Below the pieces are notes generated by a model. The model saw only the letters and a list, made by a program, of their open reading frames with translations, was not told the origin of the DNA and made no database searches. A stretch of DNA of 64,000 bases from Mariniphaga anaerophila (GTDB lineage Bacteria > Bacteroidota > Bacteroidia > Bacteroidales > Prolixibacteraceae): NCBI RefSeq assembly GCF_900129025.1, contig NZ_FQUM01000004.1:248001-312000 (forward strand), in the 5' to 3' direction. Positions within the stretch are counted from its first letter, which is position 1, and every line of letters begins with the position of its first letter. The translations under genes were made by a program, and so were the position numbers. This document shows positions 32,490-51,688 of the stretch, piece by piece.

Positions 32490-32945
32490 CTACAGAACAA
32501 TACAAGACTAGATTTCGACCTTCGGGAAAATAGTTGCAATTGTCTGGGCAAAATCTGTAAGATTATCAATACTGGCAATCAAAATACCTTCTACCCACGG
32601 GATTTTAAGTCGGTCAGCACACTAAGCCAGAAGTTAGCACCTTCGCTTTGGGAGATATACATCCCAATTAGTTCTTTTCTACCTTCTTTGTTTACCGCCA
32701 GTACGTTTTACTCTGCACGGCTTACCACTCGGCCTTCACCCCTGACTTTTATAATGCATCGCATCGAGCCAAACAATCGGATAGAACGATTCAAGCGGAC
32801 GACTTTGCCAGGCTTTGACCTGTGGAATAACTCGGTCGGTTATCTCATTTAATGTGGAATGGGATATTTTTAAATCATACATCTCTTTAACATGATTAGA
32901 GATGTCCCGAAAGCTCATCCCCAGGCCATATAAACCAAAATTAAG
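32485..32945 (-). mobile_element. IS256 (Mutator)-family transposase remnant
   Basis: The minus strand encodes about 150 residues of an internal transposase segment in broken frames: YGLGMSFRDISNHVKEMY and PIVWLDAMHYK, then after a one-base shift KVRGEGRVVSRAE, a stop, NVLAVNKEGRKELIGMYIS and FWLSVLTDLKSRG, another one-base shift, IASIDNLTDFAQTIATIFP, then two more stops near SCIV. These match the conserved core of IS256 transposases. Both the N- and C-terminal parts and the terminal inverted repeats are missing, so it is a dead scar. It sits exactly between the toroid gene stop (32941) and the GH2 fragment. Confidence 0.85.
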
Positions 32946-35034
32946 GGGAAGATTTATCTGTTTTATTAATCCCCGACGGCAAGAATTTTTTCCCAAGATG
33001 ATCGACAATTCGATTATAAGCTTCTGACGCAGCTCCGTTTCCCCAGTCATAAATCGTAAATTCGCCAATTCCCAGTCCACCAGGACTTGTTACTCCCATA
33101 TGGCCGTAATTTTCCATCATAAAACCATAATCCTTTTCATTGAAAAAAGTCCATACTTTTTCCCATTGTTCTTTGGTTGCCACATTCTCGGGGCAGTACA
33201 TCATTTCAAATGAAGCATACAAAGCAGCAATCCCGCGTTGTAAGTACTCTTCCCGTTTGAGTTCCTCTCCATAGCGGATAATTAATTCGGAAAAAAGGCT
33301 CTGCCGCGAATCGTTCCATTCGCCATCGGCATTCATCACGGCAAATCCTCCAACAGTCCTCACGTAAATATAGGGTGGCTGCCAGGAGGCCTGGTACATC
33401 AGCATTTCATCTAAAGTTCGTTCTCCCAGATTCAAATACTCCCGATTGTCTGTGAGATAAAAACATTCGAGCAATGCTTCCGCCGTCCAGAACATTGAAA
33501 GTGTATTTTGTTTAAACTGATTATTTCGTTCAATTTTTTTCCCAACCAAATCCTCCGATCCATATCGTGAACAGGACCAATATGTCTCAAAGTCTTCCCA
33601 CTGCCCTTTATGTACAATATTCTCAACAATGGCATTCATCGCTTTTAACGCCGAGTGCCTGTATTTCTCATTTTTTGTGATTTTGTAAAGGTTCAGAAGA
33701 AAAGTAACCGACATAGCTGACTCAGGTGACTCGTTTAAATGATGCAACGGTTTACGTGTTTTCAAATCGAGCCATCCGGGGAAAAAACCATTTTCAAACT
33801 GTGTTTCAGTCAGGGCATCGGCGTAACGTATGGCATAATCGAGAAGGCGCTCATCCTGTTCCAGTTCTAAATACCACAAGAGCATCTGATTCGCGGTAAA
33901 ACTCATATCAAGAATATGATACGGGGAAACACGTGCGTTACGCGAATAAGGGTTTCGGTTAGAATTTCCAAAGTAATACGTATCCCATCCTTTTGAGCGA
34001 TTATATTTTTTCCCACTGATTTCAACCTTTTCCATTTCTGTAGCAATCAGGCCAGAGAAAAATCCATTCTCCTGAGGAAATGATAAAGCCAGTTCCTTGG
34101 TTTTATTTGCGTATTCCAGCAGTTTTTCATTTCCGGTTCTCCTGGCATACCGGTATAATCCTGATGCCGAACGTAAAGAACTGAACCAGGCCTGGTTCCA
34201 AATGGAACGGAATTCTCTTTCGTTAACCTCACCCGGGTAATTAGGACTCTGTGTGGTATTGACTATAAAAACCGGGGCGCCAACTTTTCTCCCATTCAGA
34301 GTAAACTCCTGCCACACACTTTCTTTCCATGTATCAAACGCCCAATTATAAGTATGTTCCACATAACGCTCAAGATCAACAAATCCGGAAGCCATAGACT
34401 GGAAAGCATCATTTCCCCAATTCTTCCACAAAAATGCTGCAGCATCCCTGAATGGGTTCGAAATACTCTCCTTTTTATCCGAAACCAGTATATAAAAGCC
34501 AAATTCGGTTCTTCCCGGTGGGAAAACAGCACCCGGTTCTCTTACAAAGAGAACGTGTTCCTGAACTTTTGATTTGCTCATTCCCAAAGTAATTTTATTA
34601 CTGCGAGCATCAAGGTCCATATACCAGTCCACCAAAGGAATTTCCTTCAGTAACCCGAGGTCCGGAATAAGGGTTAGTTTTTTTTCACTGGAAGCAACAG
34701 TAATTGCAGGGGCGCGAAAAACATGCTGACCGATGATGTGTTTGTCGGTTGGTGTGAGATGCGACGCCCAGTGAAAATCCGGCAAAAAAGCAGGGGTGAT
34801 ATTTACCTGCCAATCATCCTGACGGACAGAATTTTTTAAATTAAACACGACCGAAACTTTTAGGATATCATCCGACAACACGGAGTAGTGCACATCAGGC
34901 GTTACACTTTCTATCTGCCCGTAATCGATTAATGCAATATATTCATTTATCCATGAAGGGATTTTCTGGCTGTCACCGGAACAACTCAGACTGAAAATTA
35001 AAACAGGAATTAATAGTCTACCCAGTTTATACAT
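32941..35034 (-). CDS. putative alpha/alpha-toroid lipoprotein of the glycan locus
   Basis: Protein of 697 residues with lipobox SLSCS (about residue 18). An N-terminal beta-rich part (about 30-190) is followed by a helical repeat region with recurrent aromatic-rich helix pairs (SGLYRYARRTGNEKLLEYA, LLWYLELEQDERLLDYAIRY, LLNLYKITKNEKYRHSALKA). This suggests an (alpha/alpha) toroid as in polysaccharide lyases, uronyl epimerases and GH88/GH105 enzymes. I cannot assign it to a named family. The start is the ATG at 35034. The C-terminus (PSGINKTDKSSP) falls at the boundary of the transposase remnant and may be shortened. It is followed by the IS scar. Confidence 0.75.
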   Translation of the reverse strand: MYKLGRLLIPVLIFSLSCSGDSQKIPSWINEYIALIDYGQIESVTPDVHYSVLSDDILKVSVVFNLKNSVRQDDWQVNITPAFLPDFHWASHLTPTDKHIIGQHVFRAPAITVASSEKKLTLIPDLGLLKEIPLVDWYMDLDARSNKITLGMSKSKVQEHVLFVREPGAVFPPGRTEFGFYILVSDKKESISNPFRDAAAFLWKNWGNDAFQSMASGFVDLERYVEHTYNWAFDTWKESVWQEFTLNGRKVGAPVFIVNTTQSPNYPGEVNEREFRSIWNQAWFSSLRSASGLYRYARRTGNEKLLEYANKTKELALSFPQENGFFSGLIATEMEKVEISGKKYNRSKGWDTYYFGNSNRNPYSRNARVSPYHILDMSFTANQMLLWYLELEQDERLLDYAIRYADALTETQFENGFFPGWLDLKTRKPLHHLNESPESAMSVTFLLNLYKITKNEKYRHSALKAMNAIVENIVHKGQWEDFETYWSCSRYGSEDLVGKKIERNNQFKQNTLSMFWTAEALLECFYLTDNREYLNLGERTLDEMLMYQASWQPPYIYVRTVGGFAVMNADGEWNDSRQSLFSELIIRYGEELKREEYLQRGIAALYASFEMMYCPENVATKEQWEKVWTFFNEKDYGFMMENYGHMGVTSPGGLGIGEFTIYDWGNGAASEAYNRIVDHLGKKFLPSGINKTDKSSP

Positions 35035-35166
35035 CACGCAATTATTTCTTTAAAATTACATTTTAAATACTTCCACTGTTTACTAACACCCGCACAAATA
35101 AGCCCGTTAAAGGCGCTTTCAAATTGCTTTTTATGCGTTGCCATTTTTCGAAATTATTAATTGATT

Positions 35167-36573
35167 TTACTTTTTCCAAATCGGACCGCCTTGATATTTT
35201 ACACCGATCGGATAATTTTCATCAGGAACATACGCTTCCTGCATAATCTTTTCAATTTTAAGAACGATTTCTGGATAACTTGCAGAAACGTCTTTACTTT
35301 CTCCAATATCCTTATTCAAATCATAAAGCTGAATTTCTTCCCCCTTTCCCAAACGAATTCCTTTCCAATGATCAAGAAGAACCGCCTGGTCGTACCTATC
35401 CCTGCAATGTCCATAATCCCAATACAGATACTTATGTTTATTCTTCTGCTTTTTCCCGGTGAGGGCCTTCACAACCGAGATACCATCAGTTACTTCAGGA
35501 GGATCAACTCCTGCTAATTCGGCAAAAGTTGGCACCATATCCTGAAAAGCAATAACTTCTTCACTAACTTTTCCTTCCGGTATTCTCCCTGTCCACCGCG
35601 CAATAAAAGGTACATGTATGCCTCCCTCTGTCAAATCTCCTTTATATCCGCGAAAAGGACCATTAGTGTCAAATTCTTCCCATACTGCATCATGCCCCCC
35701 GTTATCGCTGGTAAAGACAATCAATGTATTTTCCTTTATTCCCAATTCATCAACCAAGCTAACAATTCGCCCCACACCTTGATCTAAGATATTGACCATT
35801 GAGGCATATTTTTTAGAATGTTCATCCCACTTCATATCAGTATATGGTTCTGTTGAAGGCACTGTAAGCCGATCCTTGTCTTCAGATTTTGCGGAGAAGT
35901 GGGGCAAGGTAAAGGCAGCATATAAGAAGAACGGTTCCCGGTGGGCGTCTTTTATAAATTGCAAAGCCCGATCGGTAATTAAATTGTGGCTATAATATTG
36001 TTTCGACTGTGTATTTTTAGGAAGCTCATAACGGTAGTTATTTTCAGCTCTGTAACTATCATCCAGATATTCTGTGTAATAATAATGTGCATGGTCCTGG
36101 TTAAGATACCCAAACCACATATCGAAACCTTGATTGGTAGCAGCCCCTGCAGTACCGGCATCACCCAGTGACCACTTACCAACGCCTCCGCACCGGTAAC
36201 CGGCTTTCTTCAAAATTTCGGCAACTGTAACATCCTTTTCCTGAAGGTAAGTTGAATAATGCGGAATATTATCCCTGGCTGGTGTGTGTCCGTTATGAAG
36301 CCCTGTCATAAGTACACTTCTGGACGGAGTACAAACAGCTCCTCCTGCATAAGCCTTCGTAAAACGAATGCCTTGGGAAGCCAGTTTATCTATATTGGGG
36401 GTCTTAATTTTTTGTTGTCCGTAACATCCTAAATCACCATAGCCTAAATCGTCGGCCATTATGAAAATGATATTTGGCTTATCTCTTTCATTATTAATTG
36501 CTTTAAGGGAATAAAAACTAAATGTGCTACAGTACAGAAAAAGAACTGATTTTATTATATATCTGAAAATCAT
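35167..36573 (-). CDS. sulfatase (S1 family, Cys-type), secreted
   Basis: Protein of 468 residues with an N-terminal hydrophobic leader (about 1-25). The FGly motif is CTPSR with Cys81, and the metal-binding NIIFIMADDLGYGDLG precedes it. GKWSLGD and FTSDNGGHD provide the remaining active-site Lys, Asp and Asn residues. Like other type I sulfatases it hydrolyses sulfate esters after its Cys is converted to formylglycine. It is complete. Substrate subfamily cannot be set without a phylogeny. It lies upstream of the toroid lipoprotein in the minus-strand locus. Confidence 0.92.
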   Translation of the reverse strand: MIFRYIIKSVLFLYCSTFSFYSLKAINNERDKPNIIFIMADDLGYGDLGCYGQQKIKTPNIDKLASQGIRFTKAYAGGAVCTPSRSVLMTGLHNGHTPARDNIPHYSTYLQEKDVTVAEILKKAGYRCGGVGKWSLGDAGTAGAATNQGFDMWFGYLNQDHAHYYYTEYLDDSYRAENNYRYELPKNTQSKQYYSHNLITDRALQFIKDAHREPFFLYAAFTLPHFSAKSEDKDRLTVPSTEPYTDMKWDEHSKKYASMVNILDQGVGRIVSLVDELGIKENTLIVFTSDNGGHDAVWEEFDTNGPFRGYKGDLTEGGIHVPFIARWTGRIPEGKVSEEVIAFQDMVPTFAELAGVDPPEVTDGISVVKALTGKKQKNKHKYLYWDYGHCRDRYDQAVLLDHWKGIRLGKGEEIQLYDLNKDIGESKDVSASYPEIVLKIEKIMQEAYVPDENYPIGVKYQGGPIWKK

Positions 36574-36643: not shown

Positions 36644-38049
36644 TTAATTTGGATTTAAGGAGTGCATAACCGGATTCATTTTTTTAAGCCACCTGTCGAA
36701 TTCATATTCTAATTCATGTACTTTCTCGGGATGACTATCGGCAAGATTTTGGCTTTCATTTATATCGTATTTTAAATTGTATAATTCAATCTTTTCAGGA
36801 TCATAATATTCAATAAGTTTAAAGTCACCTTTTCGAATTGCGTGTCCAGGCATTTTTGCCTGAGGACTGTAATGCGGGTAATACCAGCATAATTGTTCTC
36901 TTTTAAGAGATTTTTCACCCAGGAGTAGTGGAACGAGGCTTAATCCGTCGATATCTTTAGCGGGTTTAGCCCCTTTTCCAACCATTTCCATGATGGTAGG
37001 ATAAATATCGTCGCTGATAACAGGAGTATCACAAGTGGTATTTTCTGCAATTTTCCCTGGCCATTTAATAATTAAAGGCACACGAATGCCACCTTCATAA
37101 AGAAATCCCTTTCCTTCTCTCAATGGCTTATTGTTTGTTGCTTTTTGTTCTCCTCCATTATCGCTGTAAAATATTATAATTGTATTATCAGATAAATTCA
37201 TCATTTCAAGCTCAGCCAGAAGACGGCCGATATTGGTATCTACATTCTCAATCATTGCAGCATATACCGCGTTTTTTTGGGATGTATTTTTTTCCATTTT
37301 TTTTCGTATTTCCTCACCAGCGAATCCGAAGCTTCCAAGGGCGTATGTACCGCATAATGAGACAAGTATAAAAAAAACGGATTTTTTTTGTTTGCTTTTA
37401 TAAAGCTAATTGCTTCATCGGTTAGCCGATCGGTCAGGTATTCTCCTGACTTACCTTCCTTCATATTTTTTATTTTAGGGTTCCAGTCAGAGCTTAGTTT
37501 TTCGTATGGCCCCCAATACGTAGGGGGACTTCCGTGTTCATAACCTGCAATATTCATGTCGAATCCCTGGTGAGTTGGAAAATATTTTTCTTTGTTACCC
37601 ACATGCCATTTGCCGATACTGATCGAATTATAACCTAACGACTTTAATGCTTCCGGAATCATGATCTCATCCAAATCAACATACATCTTGTCGTCGGGAG
37701 GAATAATTCGTCCATGTTCCGGATAACGATGCTCTCCAACAGAAGTAATGTGGCCGGTAAACTGAAGATGTGCAGGATTTTTACCCGTTAATATACTTGC
37801 ACGGGTTGGAGAACAAACCGGGCAAGCCGAATATGCATTCGTAAACATTATTCCTTCCGTTCTGAGTTTATCGATATTGGGAGTTTCATAAAACTTACTT
37901 CCATAACACTGTAAATCCTGCCATCCTAAATCATCTATCAGAATTAAAAGGATATTAGGCCTCTGCTTTTCTGCCATGAGCTGAAAAGGTGCATGAATAG
38001 CGATTAATAAAATAATAAATAGAAAAAAGGACGATTTTAGTGTTTTCAT
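36644..38049 (-). pseudogene. sulfatase (S1 family, Cys-type), split by a frameshift
   Basis: Two frames together encode one sulfatase of about 468 residues. The 5' frame (37252-38049, 265 residues) has the signal peptide, LILIDDLGWQD, the FGly motif CSPTR (Cys79) and GKWHVGN. The 3' frame (36644-37297, 217 residues) continues with NAVYAAMIENVDTNIG and YSDNGGEQK and the C-terminal subdomain. They overlap at several A-runs of 7-8 bases (on the minus strand, around 37270-37305); adding one A restores a single frame. A sequencing error, a real recent mutation, or slippage are alternatives. Without correction the product lacks the second half of the active site. Confidence 0.85.
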
Positions 38050-38117
38050 TTTAACTTTCTTTTTAATAACTGCATTCAGATCAGTAAAGACCGAATTGAA
38101 TATATTTTACTGTTCTT

Positions 38118-38461
38118 CTATTTTAAAAGTACGGGATATTGCAGTGTTTCATTAATTATCCCATTGGCAGCAAGTACTGGGTACTCCATTTTCCTTCTTT
38201 TTTTTCGGATACGTAAATACAATTGCCAAAATTATTTTCTTTTGCGCCTCCAAACCCTGAAACAAGCAGTTCATTACCTGTTTCAATAATTGTTAAGGCA
38301 TGGCATTGGTGAAAAGAAGCATTTTTGTAGCTAAACTCCGAAACCATAATCTGAGGTTTAATTTCATTTAACACCTTTTTGTTACTACATGCATAGGGAA
38401 TTAAAATGCCCTTTGTAAAAGATGAATTAATAATGTAAAAAATTAGCTTTCTCATATACAT
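38118..38461 (-). pseudogene. sialidase-like (BNR) N-terminal remnant
   Basis: An open frame of 101 residues (38156-38461) reads as the first blade of a sialidase-fold (BNR) protein: SFHQCHALTIIETGNELL, FGGAKENN and CIYVSEKKEGKWS. It stops at LPMG. A neighbouring frame continues for a few residues (NETLQYP and VLL) to a TAG at 38118-38120, which looks like the continuation of the same protein after a small shift. More than two thirds of the expected protein is absent. It has a poor leader. It lies between the frameshifted sulfatase and the FAD oxidoreductase gene. Confidence 0.6.
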
Positions 38462-38526: not shown

Positions 38527-40425
38527 TTATTCATACCAATTCCTACCAACTCCTTTTTCCATCAATAATTTTAGATCATCCAAATGGTTTTGATAAACTC
38601 CTCTGGGATTTGTACCGTATTTTTTTGCCAGTGATGCCGCCATTCCAACCACCTCGCCCATCATACCTGTTGTACGCATAACACGTACCGTACCCAGTGC
38701 AACGTGAGTAACACTAATATTCCTTCCGGCCATAAATAAATTATTAATATTTCTGGAGTATAAACACCGGTATGGAACTGCATAAGGTTCAATTTTGATA
38801 TGCTTTGCTTTTGAAAGAAAAGGTTCTTCATTAAAACCTTTCAGGGCAACCGGATAATGGAGGTCGATGGTCCAGGTTGTCGTAAAACTGGCATCGGGAT
38901 ATTCTACCCTGGTTAAAAGATCTTGTTCTTTTAAAATTACATCGCCAAGAAGCCTGCGCGATTCGCGTTTTCCGCCGATGTAGGCCACCCATTTTAGTTG
39001 ATATTCGTTGTATTTTTCCTTCTCTTTGCTTTTGTTTTTGAGGTAAGACCAGTTTCCGAAAACCGCTCGAAGAGCATAGTCTCTTATGTATTCTATATCT
39101 TCAATCTGATCCCAATAAAATCCGGTTTCCCAGTCCCAATCTCCGCGCGTTAAATGCTGGGCGGTTTCTTCAGTAAAATGCACGGCCCAGGTACATTCGG
39201 GGAAAGAAGAAGGTTTATCCGGTTTTTCGGCATACCACTGTACTGAGGTTCCCATAACCAAATCATCATCTTTTTCGGGTGCGCTGGGTTCTTCAGTTTC
39301 TGCATGGTCTTCCATTCCCATTCTGAAATCGGCACCGGCCAGAAACCCAAGATTCCCGTCGCCTGTGCAATCAGCAAAAAGTTGTCCTTTGAAAATTAAT
39401 TCTTTCCCGGTAATGATATCTCTTCCGGTTACAGAAATAATTTTGTCTCCTGATTTTTCGGCGTCAAAAACATGTGTATTCAGAAACAACTCAATGTTTT
39501 CTTCTGCTTCCACTATTTTCTGTTTTTTATCGTCGCCATAGTTGCTCTGGGGGCCGGCATTATGAATTTTCTTTTCCGGGTTGTTCTCAATTATCTCCAG
39601 ATTTTTTTTACTTCGTTCCGATTCCGGATCAAGTTTGACTTCCCAAAAGGTCCAGTGCCCAACAGAGCCAATTTCGTCAACCAGCTTTCCAAGGTTGGGA
39701 TAAGGTTCCTGAAAAATGAGTCCTGACAAACCTACACGAACTTCGGAACTGTTGTTACCGCCAAGCACCGGCCTGTTTTGAATCAGCGCCACTTTGCATC
39801 CCAGTCTGGCAGCACTAATTGCTGAAGTAATCCCTGCTATTCCGCCGCCAACGACCACCAAATCAAACTCGCCAGCCAGTTCTGGTTGCTCAGGAAGATT
39901 TAAATATGTGTCACGGAAATCTGCTAAAGCATCGGTTTCTTCAGGTGGAATGAACCCCATTTTTTTGGTCAGGATAATGGCATCGCAACGGCCATTGAAA
40001 CCGGTCAAATCATGCAGTTCAATTTCAATGTTGCCTTTGTCTAACTTAATGGTACCACCATCCTGCCAATGCCATTCCGCTCCTTCGGTTCCAAATAATG
40101 TTTTTAAAGGAACACTATCAAAAAGCAGTTGAAATTTTCCGGGAGCTTCCGAAACACCCCAGGGAGCAACCCAGTTTCGGGTACGTACCCAAACCCGGTA
40201 TTTCCCTTTTTCTGCAACTTCGATCTGTGTTCTTGCATTCTCAACCGGAACTCCCAAACCGTGGGCCATCATATAAGGCGATCCCATTTGATCCATACTT
40301 TGCTGATCGATTACCCAGCCCCCCCTGTTCTCAAAGCTTTCGGCTTCAATAAAAATTAGTTGGGCACTTGTTGAGAATGTCCCTATAAATAGCAGAAAGA
40401 TTGCTGCTAAAGTTTTATGTTTCAT
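38527..40425 (-). CDS. secreted FAD-dependent oxidoreductase with N-terminal beta-sandwich
   Basis: Protein of 632 residues with a signal peptide (1-21, TSAQ). A CBM-like beta-sandwich with aromatic strands (about 24-155, EAESFENRGGWVID) comes first. The FAD-binding Rossmann domain follows with DLVVVGGGIAGITSA (GGGIAG 193-198), a glycine-rich continuation LGGNNSSEVRVG, and ADCTGDGNLGFLAGAD. This matches the FAD-dependent oxidoreductase group frequently found in Bacteroidota glycan loci. The substrate is unknown; a sugar or sugar-derived substrate is likely from the context. It may act with the nearby secreted NAD-type oxidoreductase and isomerase. Confidence 0.85.
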   Translation of the reverse strand: MKHKTLAAIFLLFIGTFSTSAQLIFIEAESFENRGGWVIDQQSMDQMGSPYMMAHGLGVPVENARTQIEVAEKGKYRVWVRTRNWVAPWGVSEAPGKFQLLFDSVPLKTLFGTEGAEWHWQDGGTIKLDKGNIEIELHDLTGFNGRCDAIILTKKMGFIPPEETDALADFRDTYLNLPEQPELAGEFDLVVVGGGIAGITSAISAARLGCKVALIQNRPVLGGNNSSEVRVGLSGLIFQEPYPNLGKLVDEIGSVGHWTFWEVKLDPESERSKKNLEIIENNPEKKIHNAGPQSNYGDDKKQKIVEAEENIELFLNTHVFDAEKSGDKIISVTGRDIITGKELIFKGQLFADCTGDGNLGFLAGADFRMGMEDHAETEEPSAPEKDDDLVMGTSVQWYAEKPDKPSSFPECTWAVHFTEETAQHLTRGDWDWETGFYWDQIEDIEYIRDYALRAVFGNWSYLKNKSKEKEKYNEYQLKWVAYIGGKRESRRLLGDVILKEQDLLTRVEYPDASFTTTWTIDLHYPVALKGFNEEPFLSKAKHIKIEPYAVPYRCLYSRNINNLFMAGRNISVTHVALGTVRVMRTTGMMGEVVGMAASLAKKYGTNPRGVYQNHLDDLKLLMEKGVGRNWYE

Positions 40426-40492: not shown

Positions 40493-42823
40493 TCATTTTT
40501 TAATTATCCAAACTTCGGCAACAGGCGCTCCTCTTTCTCCTTTTCCGCATGTCCACGACAATTCCATTTTACCCTCAGAATAAGCTTCTTTGGGAAGGTT
40601 AAACTCCTGAATAGGCTTTCCTTCCGTGTCTATAAAATCGTGTACAATGTACTCTCCGTTAGCAATAAGTTTCATTTTCGATTGGCCCCTGCCTATTCCT
40701 CCTGTATAATTTATACGAATCTTATATTCTGAATTCGGATCAAGATTTTCGTATACCAATACTAAAGGCTCTTCATAAAGTGTAGCCATCTGTACCTTCC
40801 AGGAAACAGGCATGGGAACCACTCCCCTGATGTAATTCCTGCGCGGATAAAAATGTGTTCCGGGATCCTCTTCTGCTTTCTTTTTTGCTTTTACCCGACT
40901 AAAGGAAGCTTCTGTGCCCAGATTGTCATAAAATCCGCCAGGACCAGGGTTAGTACGGTTCAGGATTTCGTAAACCATTTGCAACTGTTCCGGCTCGCCC
41001 GATGTGTTTTTTATCCTATCAAACTGACTCAAAAGCCACTCCGAATTATTAAGGGGAACATCGATGCGTTCCACAAACTCACATTTTTGAAATTCTGACA
41101 TCCAACGTGGACTGGCCCCTCTGAAAAGAGAATTATATAACTCGTTTATTTTAAGCTTATAATCGCCCCCAACCGGATGCACAGAAGCTTCATTCAGCAC
41201 TTTTGTTGCCTGTTCAATGACTTGTAATGTTCCCAGTTTCCCGGCATTTCGCAATGCTTCCATAGCCCTGTATTCCAACACATTTTCATACATCAGGCGT
41301 TGTTTCTGGTACGCATCGTAATAAGCCCTGATAAGCCCCAACTGAAAGCGAGGATTTTGCAAAACTTCAGGTTCTGCCGTGCGTTCCATTTCCTGCCATT
41401 GCAAAAGTGTCTTTTCAATATTGTCATTGTCAATCAGCTGTCCTTTAAGATTTTTTTCTAATGCCAGAATTCCTTGTGCAATGCTTTCTGTATAATCAGG
41501 TCCAATAAATAACCGGGCATAATCGCGAAGGGTTTCAATAGCAGGTGTATTCGAATTCCAATCCTGATCGCTCCATACAAATTTATTCACATCATCGCTG
41601 TTTCCTTCGGAATAAGGACGAGCACCAACTACGATGTTTGCATATAAATTATGAATATGCTTAAAACCTTCGGGGCGTGGTTGAATTGACATTCTGCTCA
41701 GAGTATGGGCAAATACCCAATCCAACTCAGGAGCCGGATACTGGCACCCAAACAAATGAGTGATATCGGGAAATCGACGAATTGGAATACGCTCATTTAC
41801 AATTTCCCTTATTTCTTCAAGCGGGACTCTGGTCCATGGGCCAAATACTACTCCTCCAAACCAAGAGTAATCGCGATTAACATGTTCAAAGAATGACTGA
41901 TACCATTCCGCCGTAGCTTTTCCTTTATTGTTATTTTGAGGTGAAACCCAAATCCTTGCATCCGGATGATATTTCAACAAAACCGGCGCTAGTTTTTCGA
42001 GCCAGCTAAATAAAACATCGGGCTCCAAGTCACCAGGATCGCCGCCGGGAACAAAAATCTCATTCAGTTTTGGCATATTCCTGAAAATTGCTTCTCTTTT
42101 TTCCAACTCTTTCCGGATTCCTTCAGTTGACTGAAAATCATCTCCCAAATTTGCCATGTACATCGAAATATCCATACCGTATTTTAGAGCCAATTGCGCT
42201 TCAGCCGGGCTGCTTACAGAAACATGATTCAATCCGAAATAAATTAATTCCCTCAGATATTGCTCATAAAGAGATTTTTCCTGAGACATGCTATCGCTGG
42301 TGAAATGGTATGAAATATGGTGCCCCCGAATCTGTGACATTGGAGAAGAAGAAACCGACAACAGCGGTACTTTAATATCTTCATTTCTTAACTCCATTTT
42401 CCTAAGCAAATAACCAATACCATACATTACGCCGCGTTCATCATGGCCCGCAATTAACATTGTCTTTTCCCCGGGAAGCATAACTATTTTATATCCTTCC
42501 GGTGCGGCAGCCTGTAGTTCTCTTAAAGCAGAACCAAATTCCTTCTGTAACAATGAAATTTCGGTTTCCAACCCAACTATTATGGCAGGGGTATTAAAAG
42601 ACTCAGGATTTGTTCCCATTGGCAAATGAATTCCTGTTCTCCGTGCAATCTCATCGTGAAGCATTTGAGCAGCCAGTATGGTCTTTTCACTGCTCGCGTA
42701 CGGATAATAAATTGCACTATTGGTAAAATTTACATACCGGGCCTGAAGAGGGATAGAAAAAACCATCAGAAAGAATATTACCGGTAAGAATCTTGCAGGT
42801 TTACTTTTTATTATTTTTCCCAT
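40493..42823 (-). CDS. large secreted glycoside-hydrolase-like protein, family not assigned
   Basis: Protein of 776 residues with a signal peptide (about 1-28). The N-terminal part (30-165, TILAAQMLHDEIARRTG and GHDERGVMYGIGYLLRKM) resembles the alpha/beta domain found before the barrels of GH20 and GH67 enzymes. The middle (about 170-480) has TIM-barrel-like features (RGHHISYHFTSDSM, FVPGGDPGDLEPD, IWVSPQNNN). A helical region and a final beta-domain (about 670-776) follow. I would expect a hexosaminidase- or glucuronidase-like activity, but catalytic residues are not clearly those of either family. Complete, in the middle of the oxidoreductase cluster. Confidence 0.7.
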   Translation of the reverse strand: MGKIIKSKPARFLPVIFFLMVFSIPLQARYVNFTNSAIYYPYASSEKTILAAQMLHDEIARRTGIHLPMGTNPESFNTPAIIVGLETEISLLQKEFGSALRELQAAAPEGYKIVMLPGEKTMLIAGHDERGVMYGIGYLLRKMELRNEDIKVPLLSVSSSPMSQIRGHHISYHFTSDSMSQEKSLYEQYLRELIYFGLNHVSVSSPAEAQLALKYGMDISMYMANLGDDFQSTEGIRKELEKREAIFRNMPKLNEIFVPGGDPGDLEPDVLFSWLEKLAPVLLKYHPDARIWVSPQNNNKGKATAEWYQSFFEHVNRDYSWFGGVVFGPWTRVPLEEIREIVNERIPIRRFPDITHLFGCQYPAPELDWVFAHTLSRMSIQPRPEGFKHIHNLYANIVVGARPYSEGNSDDVNKFVWSDQDWNSNTPAIETLRDYARLFIGPDYTESIAQGILALEKNLKGQLIDNDNIEKTLLQWQEMERTAEPEVLQNPRFQLGLIRAYYDAYQKQRLMYENVLEYRAMEALRNAGKLGTLQVIEQATKVLNEASVHPVGGDYKLKINELYNSLFRGASPRWMSEFQKCEFVERIDVPLNNSEWLLSQFDRIKNTSGEPEQLQMVYEILNRTNPGPGGFYDNLGTEASFSRVKAKKKAEEDPGTHFYPRRNYIRGVVPMPVSWKVQMATLYEEPLVLVYENLDPNSEYKIRINYTGGIGRGQSKMKLIANGEYIVHDFIDTEGKPIQEFNLPKEAYSEGKMELSWTCGKGERGAPVAEVWIIKK

Positions 42824-42850: not shown

Positions 42851-43777
42851 TCAATTTACAAGAATTTCTTTGCAATACTCCACACATTTTGCCACTTCTG
42901 TCACTGCATCGGAGCCATCGGGAACAGGATATTCCAGCTCAATATCGCAAACTATTGGCCACTGTTTTTCTTTTATGAGATTCAGAATTTCGGCAACCGG
43001 CGTATCGCCCTGGCCAAAGGGCCGGTTTGTGTCCGGTTCGGAAGCATTCATACCAGTTTTGTCTTTAATGTGAATACTTGCAATCCGGTTGTACAACTTT
43101 TCAAGAATGACGTTGGGATGTATTCCTGTTGCACCGTAAAAATGCCCCACATCAAAGTTTAACATCATTTTGGGGCTGTAAGCAAGAAACTTTTCGAAAT
43201 TGAAACCGGGTTCGCCGGGTTGTCCGTGATTATGAAAAATGACATACAGATTATGTTTCTCGGCAAAAGGAGCCAGCCGCTCTGCTGCTTCTTCCGATAT
43301 TTCCATGGTCATTCCCATTGCTCCGAGTGCCTTGCATACATTAAAAGCATAATCAATCTCCTCATCAGCCCAACGCCTGCACCTCATTTTTACAATATGA
43401 ATATTGACTCCTTTATCGTTAAACATTTTTCGAATTTCTTTGAATTTATCCATCGAAACGGTTTTTCTCCATTCTACTATTTCTTCACGGCCTTCCGGTA
43501 TTCCGGCATACGCTTCCAATGGCGTTCCCATTAATTCAACCGAACCTATTCCGGACTCTACGGCGTAATCTAAAATTGCAGGCAATGACTGGTCGGGCAT
43601 ACTTCGGTAGCTGTATGTTATTGTTCCAATTTGTACTCCCTGAAAATTTGATCTGTTTTTTTCTGAAACACAGCTATTTGCCAGAAAACCTACCCATAGA
43701 CCGAAAATCAGAATAACTCGATATAAAATAAATGAATTGTATTTTTTTGTTTTGAATAGCTTCTTTTTCATCATCAA
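42851..43777 (-). CDS. secreted sugar isomerase/epimerase-like TIM barrel (AP endonuclease 2 family)
   Basis: Protein of 308 residues with an N-terminal hydrophobic leader ending in LANSC (lipobox-like, about residue 36), so probably a lipoprotein. The TIM barrel reads QIGTITYSYRSMP, SVELMG, FHNHGQPGEPG, NFDVGHFYG and CDIELEYP. The Glu, Asp, His and Glu residues at strand ends are the metal-binding set of the sugar isomerase/epimerase superfamily. Extracytoplasmic members of this superfamily have been linked to cleavage of 3-keto-glycosides in Bacteroidota. The gene lies 9 bases after the Gfo/Idh/MocA oxidoreductase gene, strongly suggesting joint action. Confidence 0.85.
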   Translation of the reverse strand: MMMKKKLFKTKKYNSFILYRVILIFGLWVGFLANSCVSEKNRSNFQGVQIGTITYSYRSMPDQSLPAILDYAVESGIGSVELMGTPLEAYAGIPEGREEIVEWRKTVSMDKFKEIRKMFNDKGVNIHIVKMRCRRWADEEIDYAFNVCKALGAMGMTMEISEEAAERLAPFAEKHNLYVIFHNHGQPGEPGFNFEKFLAYSPKMMLNFDVGHFYGATGIHPNVILEKLYNRIASIHIKDKTGMNASEPDTNRPFGQGDTPVAEILNLIKEKQWPIVCDIELEYPVPDGSDAVTEVAKCVEYCKEILVN

Positions 43778-43786
43778 TACTATTTA

Positions 43787-45130
43787 TTAAAGAGAATAAG
43801 GATTTCTGTACTGATAGTTGTAAAGCCGATGTGCTTCTGCCTCCTTATCATCGCCAAAACTTAACGTTGCCGGATTCCATTTTACCGGGCGTTGAAGTTC
43901 GGTAGCAATATTTGCCAAACAACAGAGGGTGTTGGTACTGCATCCTACCTCTACGGGTGCAATCGGGTCTTTTCGCGATCTGACCGCATCGATAAAGTTC
44001 TGCATGTGGGGGGAACTCACCTCATATTCTCCTTCAGCAACCTTTCTTTCTTTTTTTTCCAGCAACGACGGGTCGGAGCTTTCAATGTAACCTCTCATCA
44101 CATTAACCCATCCTTTGGTTCCGTTAAAACCGATTCCGCGGCTCCCTCTTTTTCCACCGTCTCTCCAGTTTTGTTCGGTCATTATTATGCCATTTTGATA
44201 TTTCATAGTCAGGTATTCTGTGTTGTTATAACCTTTAGGAATAAACTCACACGGGCCCAATCCATCCATTCCAATGGCAGCCTGGGCAATGTCGAACATA
44301 TGAGCTCCCCAGTCGGCGGTATAACCATTTCCGGTTTCCCTGTACCAACGCCAAGCTCCCCAGAGTTCCTCATCTTTTTCAGGATTGATGGAAATTGGAG
44401 GACATAAGTCAGGATGGTAGTGAATTGCAGGATCGTTTAACGGCCCCATCCAAAGGTTCCAGTTTAAACCTGCAGGAACCTGTTGTTCAGGTAAATCGAG
44501 TGGCTTTGGCGGATCTCCAACCTTAACATAAATGGTTTCAATATGTCCGATTGCCCCGCTTCTTACCAGTTCTATTGCCTGCTGAAATTCTTCACTCGAA
44601 CGCTGCTGGCTTCCAATCTGTAAAACCCGGTTATTGGCACGTACTGCTTTCACCATTTCCTGCCCCTCGCGAATTGTAAAAGCCAGGGGTTTTTGAACAT
44701 AAACATCCTTATTTGCCTCACAGGCGTGAATGGTCATCAAAGCATGCCAGTGATCGGGAGATGCAATGGATACAGCGTCAATATCTTTTCGTGCCAGTAA
44801 ATCTTCGTAAAACTCGTACATATCGCACCTTTGAGGTACGTTTTGAGTCAATTGCCATGCTTCCACCTTGTTTTTGAAACGAATACGTTTCAAGCTATCA
44901 GCATCGCAGCAGGCTGCTACCTGCACACCCGGGCACCCGGTAAAACTATTAAAATCGGATAAACCCTGTCGTCCCAAACCAATAAACCCTAATACTACCC
45001 TGTCGCTTGGCGCTATTCGTTTTCCATTTACCATTACCCAACTGGGCAAAATGGTAAGCCCGGTCAACCCAAGCGCTGAATAACTTAAAAACTTGCGCCT
45101 GTTTAGGTTTGTACTCTTGTTTTTTTCCAT
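43787..45130 (-). CDS. Gfo/Idh/MocA family oxidoreductase with Tat-like leader
   Basis: Protein of 447 residues with a twin-arginine-like leader (NRRKFLSYSALGLTG, about 10-24), typical of exported cofactor-loaded Gfo/Idh/MocA proteins. The nucleotide-binding motif GFIGLGRQG is at 48-56. The conserved lysine motif appears as VQKPLAF instead of the common EKPLA, and the substrate-binding half has DWGAHMFDIAQ. Such enzymes oxidise or reduce sugars, often at C3, with a tightly bound NAD(P). It is directly upstream of the isomerase/epimerase gene and in a locus with many sulfatases. The substrate is unknown. Confidence 0.88.
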   Translation of the reverse strand: MEKNKSTNLNRRKFLSYSALGLTGLTILPSWVMVNGKRIAPSDRVVLGFIGLGRQGLSDFNSFTGCPGVQVAACCDADSLKRIRFKNKVEAWQLTQNVPQRCDMYEFYEDLLARKDIDAVSIASPDHWHALMTIHACEANKDVYVQKPLAFTIREGQEMVKAVRANNRVLQIGSQQRSSEEFQQAIELVRSGAIGHIETIYVKVGDPPKPLDLPEQQVPAGLNWNLWMGPLNDPAIHYHPDLCPPISINPEKDEELWGAWRWYRETGNGYTADWGAHMFDIAQAAIGMDGLGPCEFIPKGYNNTEYLTMKYQNGIIMTEQNWRDGGKRGSRGIGFNGTKGWVNVMRGYIESSDPSLLEKKERKVAEGEYEVSSPHMQNFIDAVRSRKDPIAPVEVGCSTNTLCCLANIATELQRPVKWNPATLSFGDDKEAEAHRLYNYQYRNPYSL

Positions 45131-47173: not shown

Positions 47174-48577
47174 CTATTTTTTTCCATTCGGATGGTTATT
47201 TACAACCGGCATTTGGGCTCCAGTTTCCTCTCTCCAGTTATGCAACCGGTCAGCCATTTCCTCTACTTTTTCAGGAAAGTCTGCCTTAAGATTATTGGTT
47301 TCTCCTTCATCGGTTTCCAAATTATACAATTCGAAAGCTTTTTCTTTTTCTCCCAACAAACTTTTTTCGTACCATTCAATGAGCTTCCAATTATCAACTC
47401 TGACAGCTCCTGCCGGCTCCATCCCTGAACCGCCATGATAATGCGGATAGTGCCAGTAAAGAGATTTATGAATTTCTGTTTCAGGATTTTTCAGAAGAGG
47501 AAGGATACTTTTCCCATCGATATTTTCGGTTATCGTGTCTTTAATTCCGGCCATCTCAATAAATGTCGGGAAAAAATCATTTGAGATTACCATTGATTTT
47601 GACTTGGAGCCCGGTTTTACAACATCTTTCCACTTTACAATCATCGGCTCCCTGATCCCACCTTCGTACAGCCAGCCCTTGCCTGCCCTGAAAGGAGATT
47701 GTACTGCATATTTTTGTCGGCCTCCGTTATCGGCAAAAAACACAATAATCGTATTATCTTCTAATCCAAGGTTCTCTATCCCTTCAAATATTTTTCCACA
47801 GCTGTTGTCGAGCCGCTCAACCATAGCTGCTAAAACCGGATGATTTTCAGGGTTGGAAGATGCAGGCATATTTTCATATTTCAGGATGGTTTCAGCACGT
47901 TCTTTCAACGGGTCGTGAGTTGTATTGTGAGAAATAAACAGAAAAAATGGATTATTCCTGTTCTGTTTAATAAATTGAAGCGAGAGTTCTGTGATTGTAT
48001 CCACATTATGGGCATCAACCTCTGCACTCTGCCAGGGTTGAACCAAATCTGCTGAAGGCTTGTAAGTCACAAAATGTTCATCGAAACCCTGTTTATCCGG
48101 ATTAAAGGGTAAACTCCCGGGTGGTGTTTTTTCACGGCTCAAATGCCATTTCCCAAATATTGCTGTTTTGTAACCATGTTCTCTCAAAACTTCAGCAAAA
48201 GTGACTTCTGCCAGTGGAAGGAACTTCTGCCACTCCGGCTGACTTAACTGATAATTATCGTGGTCGTTTCCCGGAATAAAATCGGTCAGGTGAAGCCGTG
48301 CAGGATATTTCCCTGTCATAATACTTGCCCGCGTAGGTGAACAAATGGCTGCTGCTGCATAAGCATTGGTAAAAAGCATGCCATCCGAAGCCAGCTTATC
48401 GATGTTGGGAGTCTGGTAAAAGTTACTGCCATAACAACCAAGTTGAGCACTCCCCATATCATCGGCCAGAATGAAAATTATGTTTGGGGGATTTTTTATC
48501 GTCTCATTTTTTTTACAGGCGCTGTTAAGAACAATTATCAAACCAGCAACTATTAAAGGAAATTTTATATTTTTCAT
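47174..48577 (-). CDS. sulfatase (S1 family, Cys-type), lipoprotein
   Basis: Protein of 467 residues with lipobox LNSAC (Cys21). FGly motif CSPTR with Cys79; metal-binding NIIFILADDMGSAQLG precedes it. Further conserved blocks are GKWHLSREKTPPGSLP, FADNGGRQK and the C-terminal NWKLIEWYE. In layout and motifs it resembles the frameshifted sulfatase at 36644-38049, and the two may be related by duplication. Lipid anchoring places it on the periplasmic or surface side. Intact, followed after 3 bases by the FG-GAP gene. Confidence 0.92.
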   Translation of the reverse strand: MKNIKFPLIVAGLIIVLNSACKKNETIKNPPNIIFILADDMGSAQLGCYGSNFYQTPNIDKLASDGMLFTNAYAAAAICSPTRASIMTGKYPARLHLTDFIPGNDHDNYQLSQPEWQKFLPLAEVTFAEVLREHGYKTAIFGKWHLSREKTPPGSLPFNPDKQGFDEHFVTYKPSADLVQPWQSAEVDAHNVDTITELSLQFIKQNRNNPFFLFISHNTTHDPLKERAETILKYENMPASSNPENHPVLAAMVERLDNSCGKIFEGIENLGLEDNTIIVFFADNGGRQKYAVQSPFRAGKGWLYEGGIREPMIVKWKDVVKPGSKSKSMVISNDFFPTFIEMAGIKDTITENIDGKSILPLLKNPETEIHKSLYWHYPHYHGGSGMEPAGAVRVDNWKLIEWYEKSLLGEKEKAFELYNLETDEGETNNLKADFPEKVEEMADRLHNWREETGAQMPVVNNHPNGKK

Positions 48578-50119: not shown

Positions 50120-51658
50120 TTACCTAGATTTCTTGTAATACTCCCTGTCAACATTAATTTCATTTAACAGAGGGTCATTAATCTTCTCCATTTGTTCTAG
50201 TATTTTTTGATGCAGGGAATCGACAACTCCTTTAATTTCATCGCTGGAATAGTTTATTAAGTTGATATTTTCTTCGGGATCCAGTGCGATATGATATAAC
50301 TCATCCCTCGACGGATCCATAAAATCCCGTACAAGTTTCCATTCGGGTGTACGATAACTTCGTAAAAAAGCAGTAGCGTAATTAATCATACTGTATTCTG
50401 AATAAAAGTCGTTATTCCAATTATCCATTTTAGTGCCCTTTATCAGTGGAAGAAAGCTTCTGCCTCTTATTATATGTTGTTTTGGATCCGGTAATTCTGC
50501 CCCGGCAATTTCAACTATTGTAGGATACAAATCGAGCACCGAAACTGTATTATCAATAACAGTTCCGGGTTTCACCACGCCTTCCCAATAAACAAATGCA
50601 GGAACTTTAAGTGAGTTATCATATAAATTCGGTCGATATCCTTTTTTTATGTTTTCGGTATGATCGGGTTTCGTTTTTGTAATCCATTTTCCATTTCCTT
50701 TATGTTCTATTCCATTGTGTCCCATGCTATAACCATTATCAGAGAAAAAAATAATTATGGTGTTTTTGAGCAACCCAAGTTCCTCCAGAACATCGATAAC
50801 ACGACCAAGATTACGATCCATCCCCCGGGTGCTTGCTAAGTATTCTCTCGTAAGCCTCTTTGTCTTTTCAATGTCTAAATCCGGGTATCCAGGATTTGGG
50901 AGAATTGGATCCATATTTTCAAACGGAGCCCAATCGGATTCTGAAACGGGTAACCAACGAGCATGTGGAGCACGGGTATTCAGGCATAATAAGAAGTTGT
51001 CAGCCGAATTATCTTTTATAAATTTTATAGCATAATCTGCTAATATATCAGTAGTAAGTCCTTCTATTTTTCTTAATTCTCCTTCTACTTCCAATTCCGG
51101 ATCAACAGTAGAAACACCCCCACCAACAAGCCCCATAAAATAATCGAATCCATGGTTTGTGGGATGGTATTTTTTGTCACCCTCTGTAGTCCAGTCGCCC
51201 AGATGCCATTTTCCAACTAACCCTGTTTTGTATCCTGCTTTTTGCAAGACCTCTGCAAAAGTAACACTTTCAGGATCCAGACCGGCATTGTAAGTGGAAT
51301 CATAGGTTAGCGAACTATGCGTTGGGCTTACAATAAAATCATAAATACCATATTCGCTTGCATAACAGCCAGTCATTATACTTACCCTGGAGGGACTACA
51401 AACCGGTGTTGTGGTAAAAGCATTTCTGAAAACGGCCCCATTTTTCGCCAATTTATCCATGTTAGGAGTAATGGCATTTGGATCTCCTGAAGCGCTGAAT
51501 GCCCATGGAGCCTGATCGTCTGTTAAAACAAAAAGTATGTCTGGCTTTTTATTGTCTTGCGCTAAAGACTTGATTCCAAAAACATTACACAACAGCAACA
51601 ATAAAAAGAATAAAAAACTGTAAGTCAGACTATTGGTAATATAAATTTCCTCCTTCAT
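50120..51658 (-). CDS. sulfatase (S1 family, Cys-type), secreted
   Basis: Protein of 512 residues. The frame is open upstream, but the ATG at 51658 gives MKEEIY followed by a hydrophobic signal segment, while the upstream extension contains no leader. The FGly motif is CSPSR with Cys87, with metal-binding FVLTDDQAPWAF, GKWHLGDW and FFSDNGYSMG. The Asn-Gly-Tyr in place of Asn-Gly-Gly marks a different subfamily from the other sulfatases in the locus. It is the first enzyme after SusD, separated by about 390 non-coding bases, so a separate promoter or an internal terminator is possible there. Confidence 0.92.
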   Translation of the reverse strand: MKEEIYITNSLTYSFLFFLLLLLCNVFGIKSLAQDNKKPDILFVLTDDQAPWAFSASGDPNAITPNMDKLAKNGAVFRNAFTTTPVCSPSRVSIMTGCYASEYGIYDFIVSPTHSSLTYDSTYNAGLDPESVTFAEVLQKAGYKTGLVGKWHLGDWTTEGDKKYHPTNHGFDYFMGLVGGGVSTVDPELEVEGELRKIEGLTTDILADYAIKFIKDNSADNFLLCLNTRAPHARWLPVSESDWAPFENMDPILPNPGYPDLDIEKTKRLTREYLASTRGMDRNLGRVIDVLEELGLLKNTIIIFFSDNGYSMGHNGIEHKGNGKWITKTKPDHTENIKKGYRPNLYDNSLKVPAFVYWEGVVKPGTVIDNTVSVLDLYPTIVEIAGAELPDPKQHIIRGRSFLPLIKGTKMDNWNNDFYSEYSMINYATAFLRSYRTPEWKLVRDFMDPSRDELYHIALDPEENINLINYSSDEIKGVVDSLHQKILEQMEKINDPLLNEINVDREYYKKSR

Positions 51659-51688
51659 CCTACAATTATTTTCTACTACCCAAACCAC

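Follow-up and report, generated by a model that had tools for sequence, protein, structure and literature searches.

A derived branch, probably re-purposed, within an unnamed family of glycosidase-like proteins in Mariniphaga anaerophila

What becomes of a glycosidase-like barrel once many of the conserved residues in its first strands have been replaced? This question is raised by a gene in the 64,000-nucleotide stretch of Mariniphaga anaerophila DNA analysed here (contig NZ_FQUM01000004.1, positions 248,001 to 312,000; hereafter the window). An open reading frame (ORF) of 776 residues, with an ATG start and zero internal stops, occupies positions 40493..42823 on the minus strand, exactly where an earlier, sequence-only reading had placed a hydrolase-like protein. 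We refer to its product as protein W. Orthologues in Mariniphaga sediminis (L008, 81% identical) and in a different genus (L121, 63% identical) identify the frame as a real gene, whose intact product is probably secreted. Judged by its sequence, protein W is a derived branch of an unnamed family rather than a typical member, and it has probably been re-purposed. Its parts are as follows.

40493..42823, minus strand: protein W, 776 residues (ORF reading; orthologues L008 and L121)
42737..42823, minus strand: residues 1-29, start resembling a signal peptide (by eye, from the sequence)
42344..42736, minus strand: residues 30-160, α/β domain resembling GH20b and GH67N (Pfam, below cut-off)
41549..42343, minus strand: residues 161-425, TIM (triosephosphate isomerase) barrel (AlphaFold2 model and fold matches; without a Pfam or NCBIfam model)
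42205..42206, minus strand: junction of residues 206 and 207, gap of ~20 residues after barrel strand 2, where relatives have PPRTDD...M...M (alignment)
42032..42055, minus strand: residues 257-264, FVPGGDPG after strand 4, holding D262 (alignment)
41756..41770, minus strand: residues 352-356, PDITH after strand 7, with D353 and H356 retained (alignment)
41690..41692, minus strand: M378, a Glu in the aligned relatives (GRE motif; alignment)
41573..41614, minus strand: residues 404-417, YSEGNSDDVNKFVW, strand 8, with E406, D410 and D411 retained (alignment)
40934..41548, minus strand: residues 426-630, mainly helical domain (AlphaFold2 secondary structure)
40496..40933, minus strand: residues 631-776, C-terminal β-rich domain (AlphaFold2; reached by GH115 alignments alone)

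The signal-peptide-like start, as read by eye, suggests that protein W is exported. The domain that follows had been assigned to the type that precedes the barrels of glycoside hydrolase (GH) families 20 and 67, and Pfam agrees, with matches below cut-off in protein W itself (Glyco_hydro_20b, 24.9 bits against 26.1; Glyco_hydro_67N, PF03648, 20.3 bits against 24.3). The L121 orthologue reaches 26.1 bits with Glyco_hydro_67N, above the cut-off, and this model matches at E ≤ 0.1 in all six members scanned, protein W included.

Conserved and replaced positions of the barrel

The unnamed family is the one marked by the motifs FVPGGDPG and DDVNK, with L018, L010 and L077 as examples. Protein W shares 38-47% identity with the 50 canonical rows of alignment A2, and has their architecture and the motifs of strands 4-8, which define membership: D262, D353-H356, Y404-E406, D410 and D411 are all retained. 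Of the two marks of a typical member, the PPRTDD loop is missing from it, and most of the invariant residues of strands 1-3 are replaced. The alignment lacks this loop of ~20 residues after barrel strand 2 in protein W, L008 and L121; since the gap is common to three members, one of them from another genus, a chance deletion in a single genome was rejected. The loop motif is present in 29 of the 33 loci L088-L120. Two loop-less loci in this set, L093 and L094, duplicate the genes listed as L008 and L121, L091 resembles L002 and has near-normal spacing, and L092 is a fragment. Among 140 genomes of the Prolixibacteraceae the loop-less branch occurs in three, where the best identities to protein W are 100, 81 and 63%, followed by values of at most 51%; the family matches that entered no loop check, having no locus, all lie at or below 51%.

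The extent of replacement was determined from 36 positions in strands 1-3 that are at least 97% invariant in 78 canonical rows. Protein W and L008 have lost 21 of these and L121 has lost 20, whereas no canonical row has lost more than 2, a comparison that is partly circular because the positions were defined on the same rows that were compared. The invariants were therefore redefined on 73 rows, which include neither the loop-less branch nor L002 and L006, two distant relatives, nor five canonical rows with long branches. With this definition, protein W, L008 and L121 keep only 15, 15 and 16 of 37 invariants in strands 1-3, whereas in strands 4-8 they keep 57, 56 and 57 of 64 (Fisher p from 4.4e-7 to 1.4e-6, for positions that are not independent). 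All three members retain the strand-4 invariants completely (10/10). The five left-out canonical rows, which are similarly diverged, keep 35-37 of the 37 positions in strands 1-3. L002 and L006 keep 23/37 and 24/37 there, and 50/64 each in strands 4-8, so that part of strands 1-3 is variable in distant relatives as well.

The residues that survive include several acids. L018 residues D275, D363, H366, D378, D420 and D421 are kept both in the branch and in L002 and L006, and correspond to D262, D353, H356, D368, D410 and D411 of protein W; D262, located after strand 4, is invariant across the aligned rows. E406 (L018 E416) is likewise kept in the branch, and is an Asp in L002 and L006. At several of the replaced positions the three members agree on the new residue (E195>S, P198>S, P237>A, E388>M, N391>Q and N419>S, in L018 numbering), a pattern more in keeping with a new constraint than with decay.

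A tree of 97 rows places the three loop-less members in one group (100% in the Shimodaira-Hasegawa-like approximate likelihood ratio test, SH-aLRT) with a stem length of 1.37 changes per column. The group is nested among canonical Bacteroidota rows at forks of 90-100%, with the other phyla and L002 and L006 outside. The tree is a quick one, midpoint-rooted and calculated without bootstrap; read with the caution due to long branches, the loss of the loop looks derived and appears to be a single event. Between protein W and L008, the ratio of non-synonymous to synonymous substitution rates (dN/dS) is 0.112 for the whole gene and 0.457 for the signal region. The lowest two of six segments are those of the barrel, with 0.07 for strands 1-3 and 0.054 for strands 4-8, and four neighbouring genes yield values of 0.058-0.100. 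The comparison with L121 allows no dN/dS, as dS is saturated. The rebuilt half of the barrel is thus roughly as guarded by purifying selection as the rest. A decayed pseudogene was rejected, given a frame that is open in three genomes and the whole-gene dN/dS.

Predicted fold, named glycosidase families and spread of the unnamed family

The AlphaFold2 model of protein W (52 aligned sequences) has a mean predicted local distance difference test score (pLDDT) of 89.2 and a predicted template modelling score (pTM) of 0.89, and the barrel-like middle that had been suspected from the sequence appears in it as a TIM barrel. Values below 50 are confined to residues 175-181, in the strand-1 loop, and 571-580. 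The model of the canonical relative L018 has a pLDDT of 92.1. A Foldseek search of the PDB with protein W ranked GH115 best (7pxq, E 5.0e-20), followed by GH84, GH138 (6hze, E 9.8e-14), GH67 and GH20. With VIA-align, the top match was GH115 4c91_A (Z = 21.4, root mean square deviation (r.m.s.d.) = 16.8, 616 residues aligned, covering residues 28-776), and further matches were GH115 6nps_B (Z = 20.1, r.m.s.d. = 7.5, 613 aligned), GH84 2xpk_A (Z = 18.1, r.m.s.d. = 4.7, 436 aligned), GH84 7khv_B (Z = 17.8, r.m.s.d. = 3.4, 382 aligned) and GH67 1l8n_A (Z = 17.1, r.m.s.d. = 5.4, 456 aligned). Few of the fold matches extend past residue 612. For L018, GH115 and GH84 are level by Z-score (21.1 and 20.8), and Foldseek again ranks GH115 top. 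The likeness of the modelled fold to glycosidases shows no function; the hydrolase-like architecture proposed earlier is supported, and activity as a hydrolase is inferred.

The GH115 α-glucuronidases (BoAgu115A, 4c90 and 4c91; SdeAgu115A, 4zmh; AxyAgu115A, 6nps) resemble the predicted model across residues 28-776, both in fold and in the order of the domains, but with an identity of just 10-14% in the fold matches. The GH115 catalytic model PF15979 has no match at E ≤ 0.1 in protein W or in five other members scanned. When the canonical alignment A3 (the 50 canonical rows plus L008) was compared with GH115, hhalign gave 96.9% over columns 31-168, which represent the N-terminal domain and stop before the barrel. 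For BoAgu115A, the active-site residues are D206, R328, D332, E375 and H422, with D206, D332 and E375 as catalytic candidates and mobile loops that assemble the site (PMC3879575). PMC13059095 offers background of a general kind on GH115.

The GH84 O-GlcNAcases (CpOGA, BtGH84) have the barrel fold in common with protein W, and a weak profile pairing aligns the canonical RGHQLGY and PPRTDDD with RGxxEGFYG and PKDDPYH of GH84 (hhalign with five sequences, 74%, E 2.8e-5, columns 105-360). The GH84 model NAGidase (PF07555) matched neither protein W nor the other members scanned at E ≤ 0.1. An adjacent Asp-Asp pair stands at the end of strand 4 in GH84. Protein W does not have this catalytic pair, the sequence being GGDPGD at that point (residues 255-268, EIFVPGGDPGDLEP), and the PPRTDD loop that pairs with PKDDPYH in the canonical family is missing from it too. 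According to two GH84 studies, the adjacent Asp-Asp is the catalytic motif and its second Asp the acid, Asp298 in CpOGA (PMC2828546, PMC4683255).

GH67 α-glucuronidases resemble protein W in the barrel fold and in the type of N-terminal domain, for which protein W scores below the cut-off and L121 above it; the GH67 barrel model is not among the Pfam matches at E ≤ 0.1 in protein W or the members scanned. Similarly, the GH20 catalytic domain PF00728 is not matched in protein W, where domain 20b stands alone, and DUF4838 (PF16126, which we take to be CAZy GH163) has no match at E ≤ 0.1 in protein W or the members scanned. A profile of 14 DUF4838 proteins aligns with the canonical family profile (hhalign 97.2%, E 4.3e-11, columns 32-315), mainly over the N-terminal domain, followed by large gaps up to strand 5, and the barrel part is poor. 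Genes of the DUF4838 cluster also lie one to three ORFs downstream of the family gene in 9 of the best 80 loci, such as L020:14998-17574. Searches with tblastn and protein W returned weak matches of ~25% identity to residues 373-756 in long frames, mostly of ~900 residues, in genomes of relatives; one of these, at G862:C65, overlaps with a weak match to DUF4838.

Residues 100-445 of L018, which include part of the N-terminal domain, yield local hhalign values of 53% for GH84 and 92% for GH115, in unconvincing registers, and global values of 3% and 0.05%. In view of these unconvincing local and near-zero global alignments, catalytic residues were not transferred from GH84 or GH115. A PDB sequence search with protein W as single query returned one chance-level match and none for the barrel, and a profile of six sequences found the GH84 chain CpGH84B and GH67 chains over the N-terminal domain, the latter up to profile position 238. 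The only NCBIfam match of protein W is to the α-d-galacturonidase model NF049878 (residues 45-171, 15.5 bits, curated cut-off 1300 bits). The same model matches 42 of the 51 A3 rows at E ≤ 0.1, with a best E of 1.9e-8 and the cut-off far off, and residues 29-164 of L018 at 23.2 bits; an NCBIfam β-N-acetylglucosaminidase model matches 28 of the 51 rows, far below its cut-off. The barrel of protein W itself has no model in Pfam (E ≤ 0.1) or NCBIfam, in line with the claim that no CAZy family could be named, and its agreement with characterised glycosidases over the whole barrel is one of fold alone.

A scan of genome contigs with two patterns, in which genes may be counted twice, matched at least 592 stretches, at least 543 of them encoding a relative. 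The best 80 of these were taken as family loci (L008-L087), so that farther members are under-represented; L049, which has an internal stop, was left out of alignments. These best 80 loci come from Bacteroidota, Calditrichota, groups of Planctomycetes, candidate division KSB1, one Actinomycetota bin and Paenibacillus. The distribution is patchy, with relatives in 3 of 395 genomes of the phylum sample, 5 of 393 of the order sample and 34 of the 140 Prolixibacteraceae genomes, own genome counted. Three plasmid records carry relatives, each annotated as hypothetical protein, and one scan of viral contigs returned zero. In the open-licence literature we found no title or abstract on the family, in searches that were not aimed at a family name, and we do not claim that it is unpublished.

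An HpcH/HpaI-aldolase cluster, identified through a scanned representative, lies within five ORFs of the family gene in 46 of the best 80 loci and directly adjoins it in 36, a hint at sugar-acid release by canonical members. Scans of 20 window ORFs and of the L121 contig, with its seven ORFs, found no HpcH/HpaI gene. The family thus spans several phyla, resembles an unassigned glycoside hydrolase family, and often stands beside an HpaI-type aldolase. Scanned representatives also place an HGSNAT_cat/NagX-type cluster near the family gene in 15 of the best 80 loci and a dihydrodipicolinate synthase (DHDPS) cluster in 9. Paenibacillus cremeus (L077:9956-17392) apparently has three consecutive family genes of 810, 825 and 808 residues, the second and third judged by their first residues, preceded by a gene of the aldolase cluster and a transporter-like set.

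The sulfatase partner and competing explanations

The gene for protein W lies close to a sulfatase gene and within a row of oxidoreductase genes.

35167..36573, minus strand: sulfatase with the same three-genome occurrence as the branch (orthologue search, 140 genomes)
38527..40425, minus strand: flavin adenine dinucleotide (FAD) oxidoreductase (FAD_oxidored), next gene downstream (Pfam E 1.8e-66)
42851..43777, minus strand: AP_endonuc_2 (xylose-isomerase-like TIM), lipoprotein-like N-terminus by eye (Pfam E 1.7e-14)
43787..45130, minus strand: Gfo/Idh/MocA oxidoreductase, N-terminus RRKFL resembling a twin-arginine translocation (Tat) leader by eye (Pfam)

Orthologues of the sulfatase, with scores of 1104, 895 and 768 bits, occur in precisely those three genomes that carry the branch, and the next match listed scores 466. 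The two genes stand 2.8-4.6 kb apart in the three loci. On the L121 contig, the sulfatase orthologue (70% identical) is the sole close counterpart of a window protein besides protein W itself; a second sulfatase there is 32% identical to the one at 48597. The nearest solved structures to the partner sulfatase are 7ana (286 bits) and 7an1 (263 bits), presumably both S1_20 enzymes. For the sulfatases at 47174 and 48597 it is the S1_16 κ-carrageenan sulfatase 9fo1 (374 and 313 bits). S1_16 and S1_20 enzymes of B. theta act on 4S- or 3S-galactose or N-acetylgalactosamine (PMC10154612). Together with the genes for GH92, GH2 and a GH88-like protein (Pfam, the last slightly under cut-off) in the locus, these nearest structures make a sulfated, galacto-configured glycan a plausible candidate substrate, and the sulfatase link thus supplies a concrete substrate hypothesis.

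The explanation that we tentatively prefer, at somewhat less than even confidence, is that protein W is an exported glycoside hydrolase of the unnamed family, with a rebuilt glycone pocket and a new specificity, partnered with the sulfatase at 35167-36573. Following export to the periplasm, D262 would serve as catalytic acid after strand 4, where GH84 has its acid, and D353/H356 or E406/D410/D411 may complete the site, with the lost residues of strands 1-3 lining the pocket. The substrate would be a sulfated, probably galacto-configured glycan on which the sulfatase acts right before or after protein W, and the released sugar would go on to the Gfo/Idh, AP_endonuc_2 and FAD enzymes. Should D262 be the acid, activity of protein W is possible, and the glycone specificity would have been set by the lost half. 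Several observations weigh on the other side. The branch has lost two strand-2 acids, E195 and D203, and also E388, which lies between strands 7 and 8 (L018 numbering), although canonical rows as well as L002 and L006 conserve all three; it is these three acidic positions that bear out the sequence-only reader's difficulty in placing the catalytic acids. The strand-3 Trp W235 is also lost in the branch and kept in L002 and L006. If E195, D203 or E388 is catalytic, protein W would be inactive. Moreover, the sulfatase link stems from three genomes, two of them of one genus with one common locus, and from a search that scored at most 11 candidates per genome, of up to 164. The sulfatase at 50120-51688 has no S1_16-like nearest structure (best 157 bits), and by hhalign the homology of the family barrel to characterised GH barrels is weak.

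These losses are the basis of a pseudo-glycosidase explanation, the main rival, which we consider rather unlikely. Catalysis would have gone with E195, D202/D203 and E388, and the barrel would bind a sulfated glycan or present it to the sulfatase or the oxidoreductases; D202 is likewise missing from all three members. The selective loss of conserved acids together with the strand-3 Trp agrees with this, as does a single group on a long stem with strong constraint afterwards; the retained acids of strands 4-8 (D262, D353, E406, D410, D411) do not, and strands 4-8 are under tighter constraint than any other segment; a protein that only binds glycan has no obvious need for every one of these acids to be fixed. 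It is because of this constraint that we lean, not strongly, towards activity. A broader proposal, which we hold to be doubtful, is that the pocket half was stripped once in the Prolixibacteraceae as the barrel became a sulfatase partner, either one that does not hydrolyse and keeps a sulfated sugar in place while it is desulfated or 3-oxidised, or a hydrolase whose catalytic set is unlike those of GH115, GH84 and GH67.

Protein W might also be a hydrolase or lyase acting on 3-keto-glycosides made by the adjoining Gfo/Idh enzyme; as oxidation acidifies C2-H, a smaller set of acids would suffice. The tightly packed same-strand genes, AP_endonuc_2, the Tat-like and lipoprotein-like leaders of the two upstream proteins, and the partial match of the Gfo/Idh protein to glycoside 3-dehydrogenase (NCBIfam, 129.5 bits, cut-off 750) would suit such a role. 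We regard it as improbable, as the L121 contig has the branch protein and Gfo/Idh and AP_endonuc_2 in none of its seven ORFs scanned, and relatives of the FAD gene are mostly found without the branch. Least probable of all is an ordinary member with the family's own activity, in which the absent loop reshapes the rim alone. Fold and strand 4-8 motifs are the same as in the family and the length is similar, but 21 of 36 invariant positions in strands 1-3 are changed, against at most 2 of 37 in similarly diverged canonical rows. The branch amounts to a natural experiment, having lost half of a conserved pocket and then become frozen; comparison of L018 with protein W would tell the half responsible for chemistry from the half that sets specificity.

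Neighbouring genes of the locus

The Gfo/Idh/MocA, AP_endonuc_2, protein W and FAD oxidoreductase genes follow one another on one strand with gaps of 9, 27 and 67 bases. The description of protein W as the centre of an oxidoreductase cluster therefore holds locally, with Gfo/Idh and AP_endonuc_2 on one side and the FAD enzyme on the other; more widely, these genes belong to a SusC/SusD polysaccharide-utilisation locus that carries several sulfatases. Relatives of the FAD gene (E ≤ 1e-60) occur in 54 of the 140 Prolixibacteraceae genomes, 51 of which are without the loop-less branch. The FAD oxidoreductase was rejected as an obligate partner on the strength of this spread and of six loci read, two of them on short contigs, none of which contains protein W. 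These six loci present differing gene settings, and the FAD protein has a weak Golvesin_C-like stretch at its N-terminus.

The M. sediminis locus has counterparts of 11 window genes in preserved order and three extra genes, for a sulfatase, a BNR_2 protein and a DHDPS-family protein. The last (L008:18354-19265, dihydrodipicolinate synthase/N-acetylneuraminate lyase family) has no counterpart among the window ORFs by BLAST. In the window, 36644-38049 on the minus strand holds a sulfatase in two overlapping frames of 265 and 217 residues, which in M. sediminis (L008:15402-16865) is a single frame of 488 residues; the two sequences differ by a gap of one base within an A-rich run, and the split may be a broken gene, frameshifting or an assembly error. 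At 38103-38398, minus strand, lies a remnant of a BNR_2 (sialidase-like) gene, made up of two pieces that overlap and have 59% and 49% identity to the intact 345-residue gene that M. sediminis has between its FAD gene and sulfatase (L008:14368-15402).

The L121 contig (10.9 kb, both ends cut) encodes the branch protein, two sulfatases, GH20, GH3 and DUF2961; none of the seven ORFs scanned is a Gfo/Idh or AP_endonuc_2 gene. In the window, 32941-35037 on the minus strand encodes a protein of 698 residues with weak Pfam matches to C5-epim_C (25.6 bits, cut-off 23.3) and to pectate lyases, for which the PDB holds no relatives at E ≤ 0.01. A truncated 500-residue protein of the L121 contig (L121:9392-10891) has a weak C5-epim_C match too.

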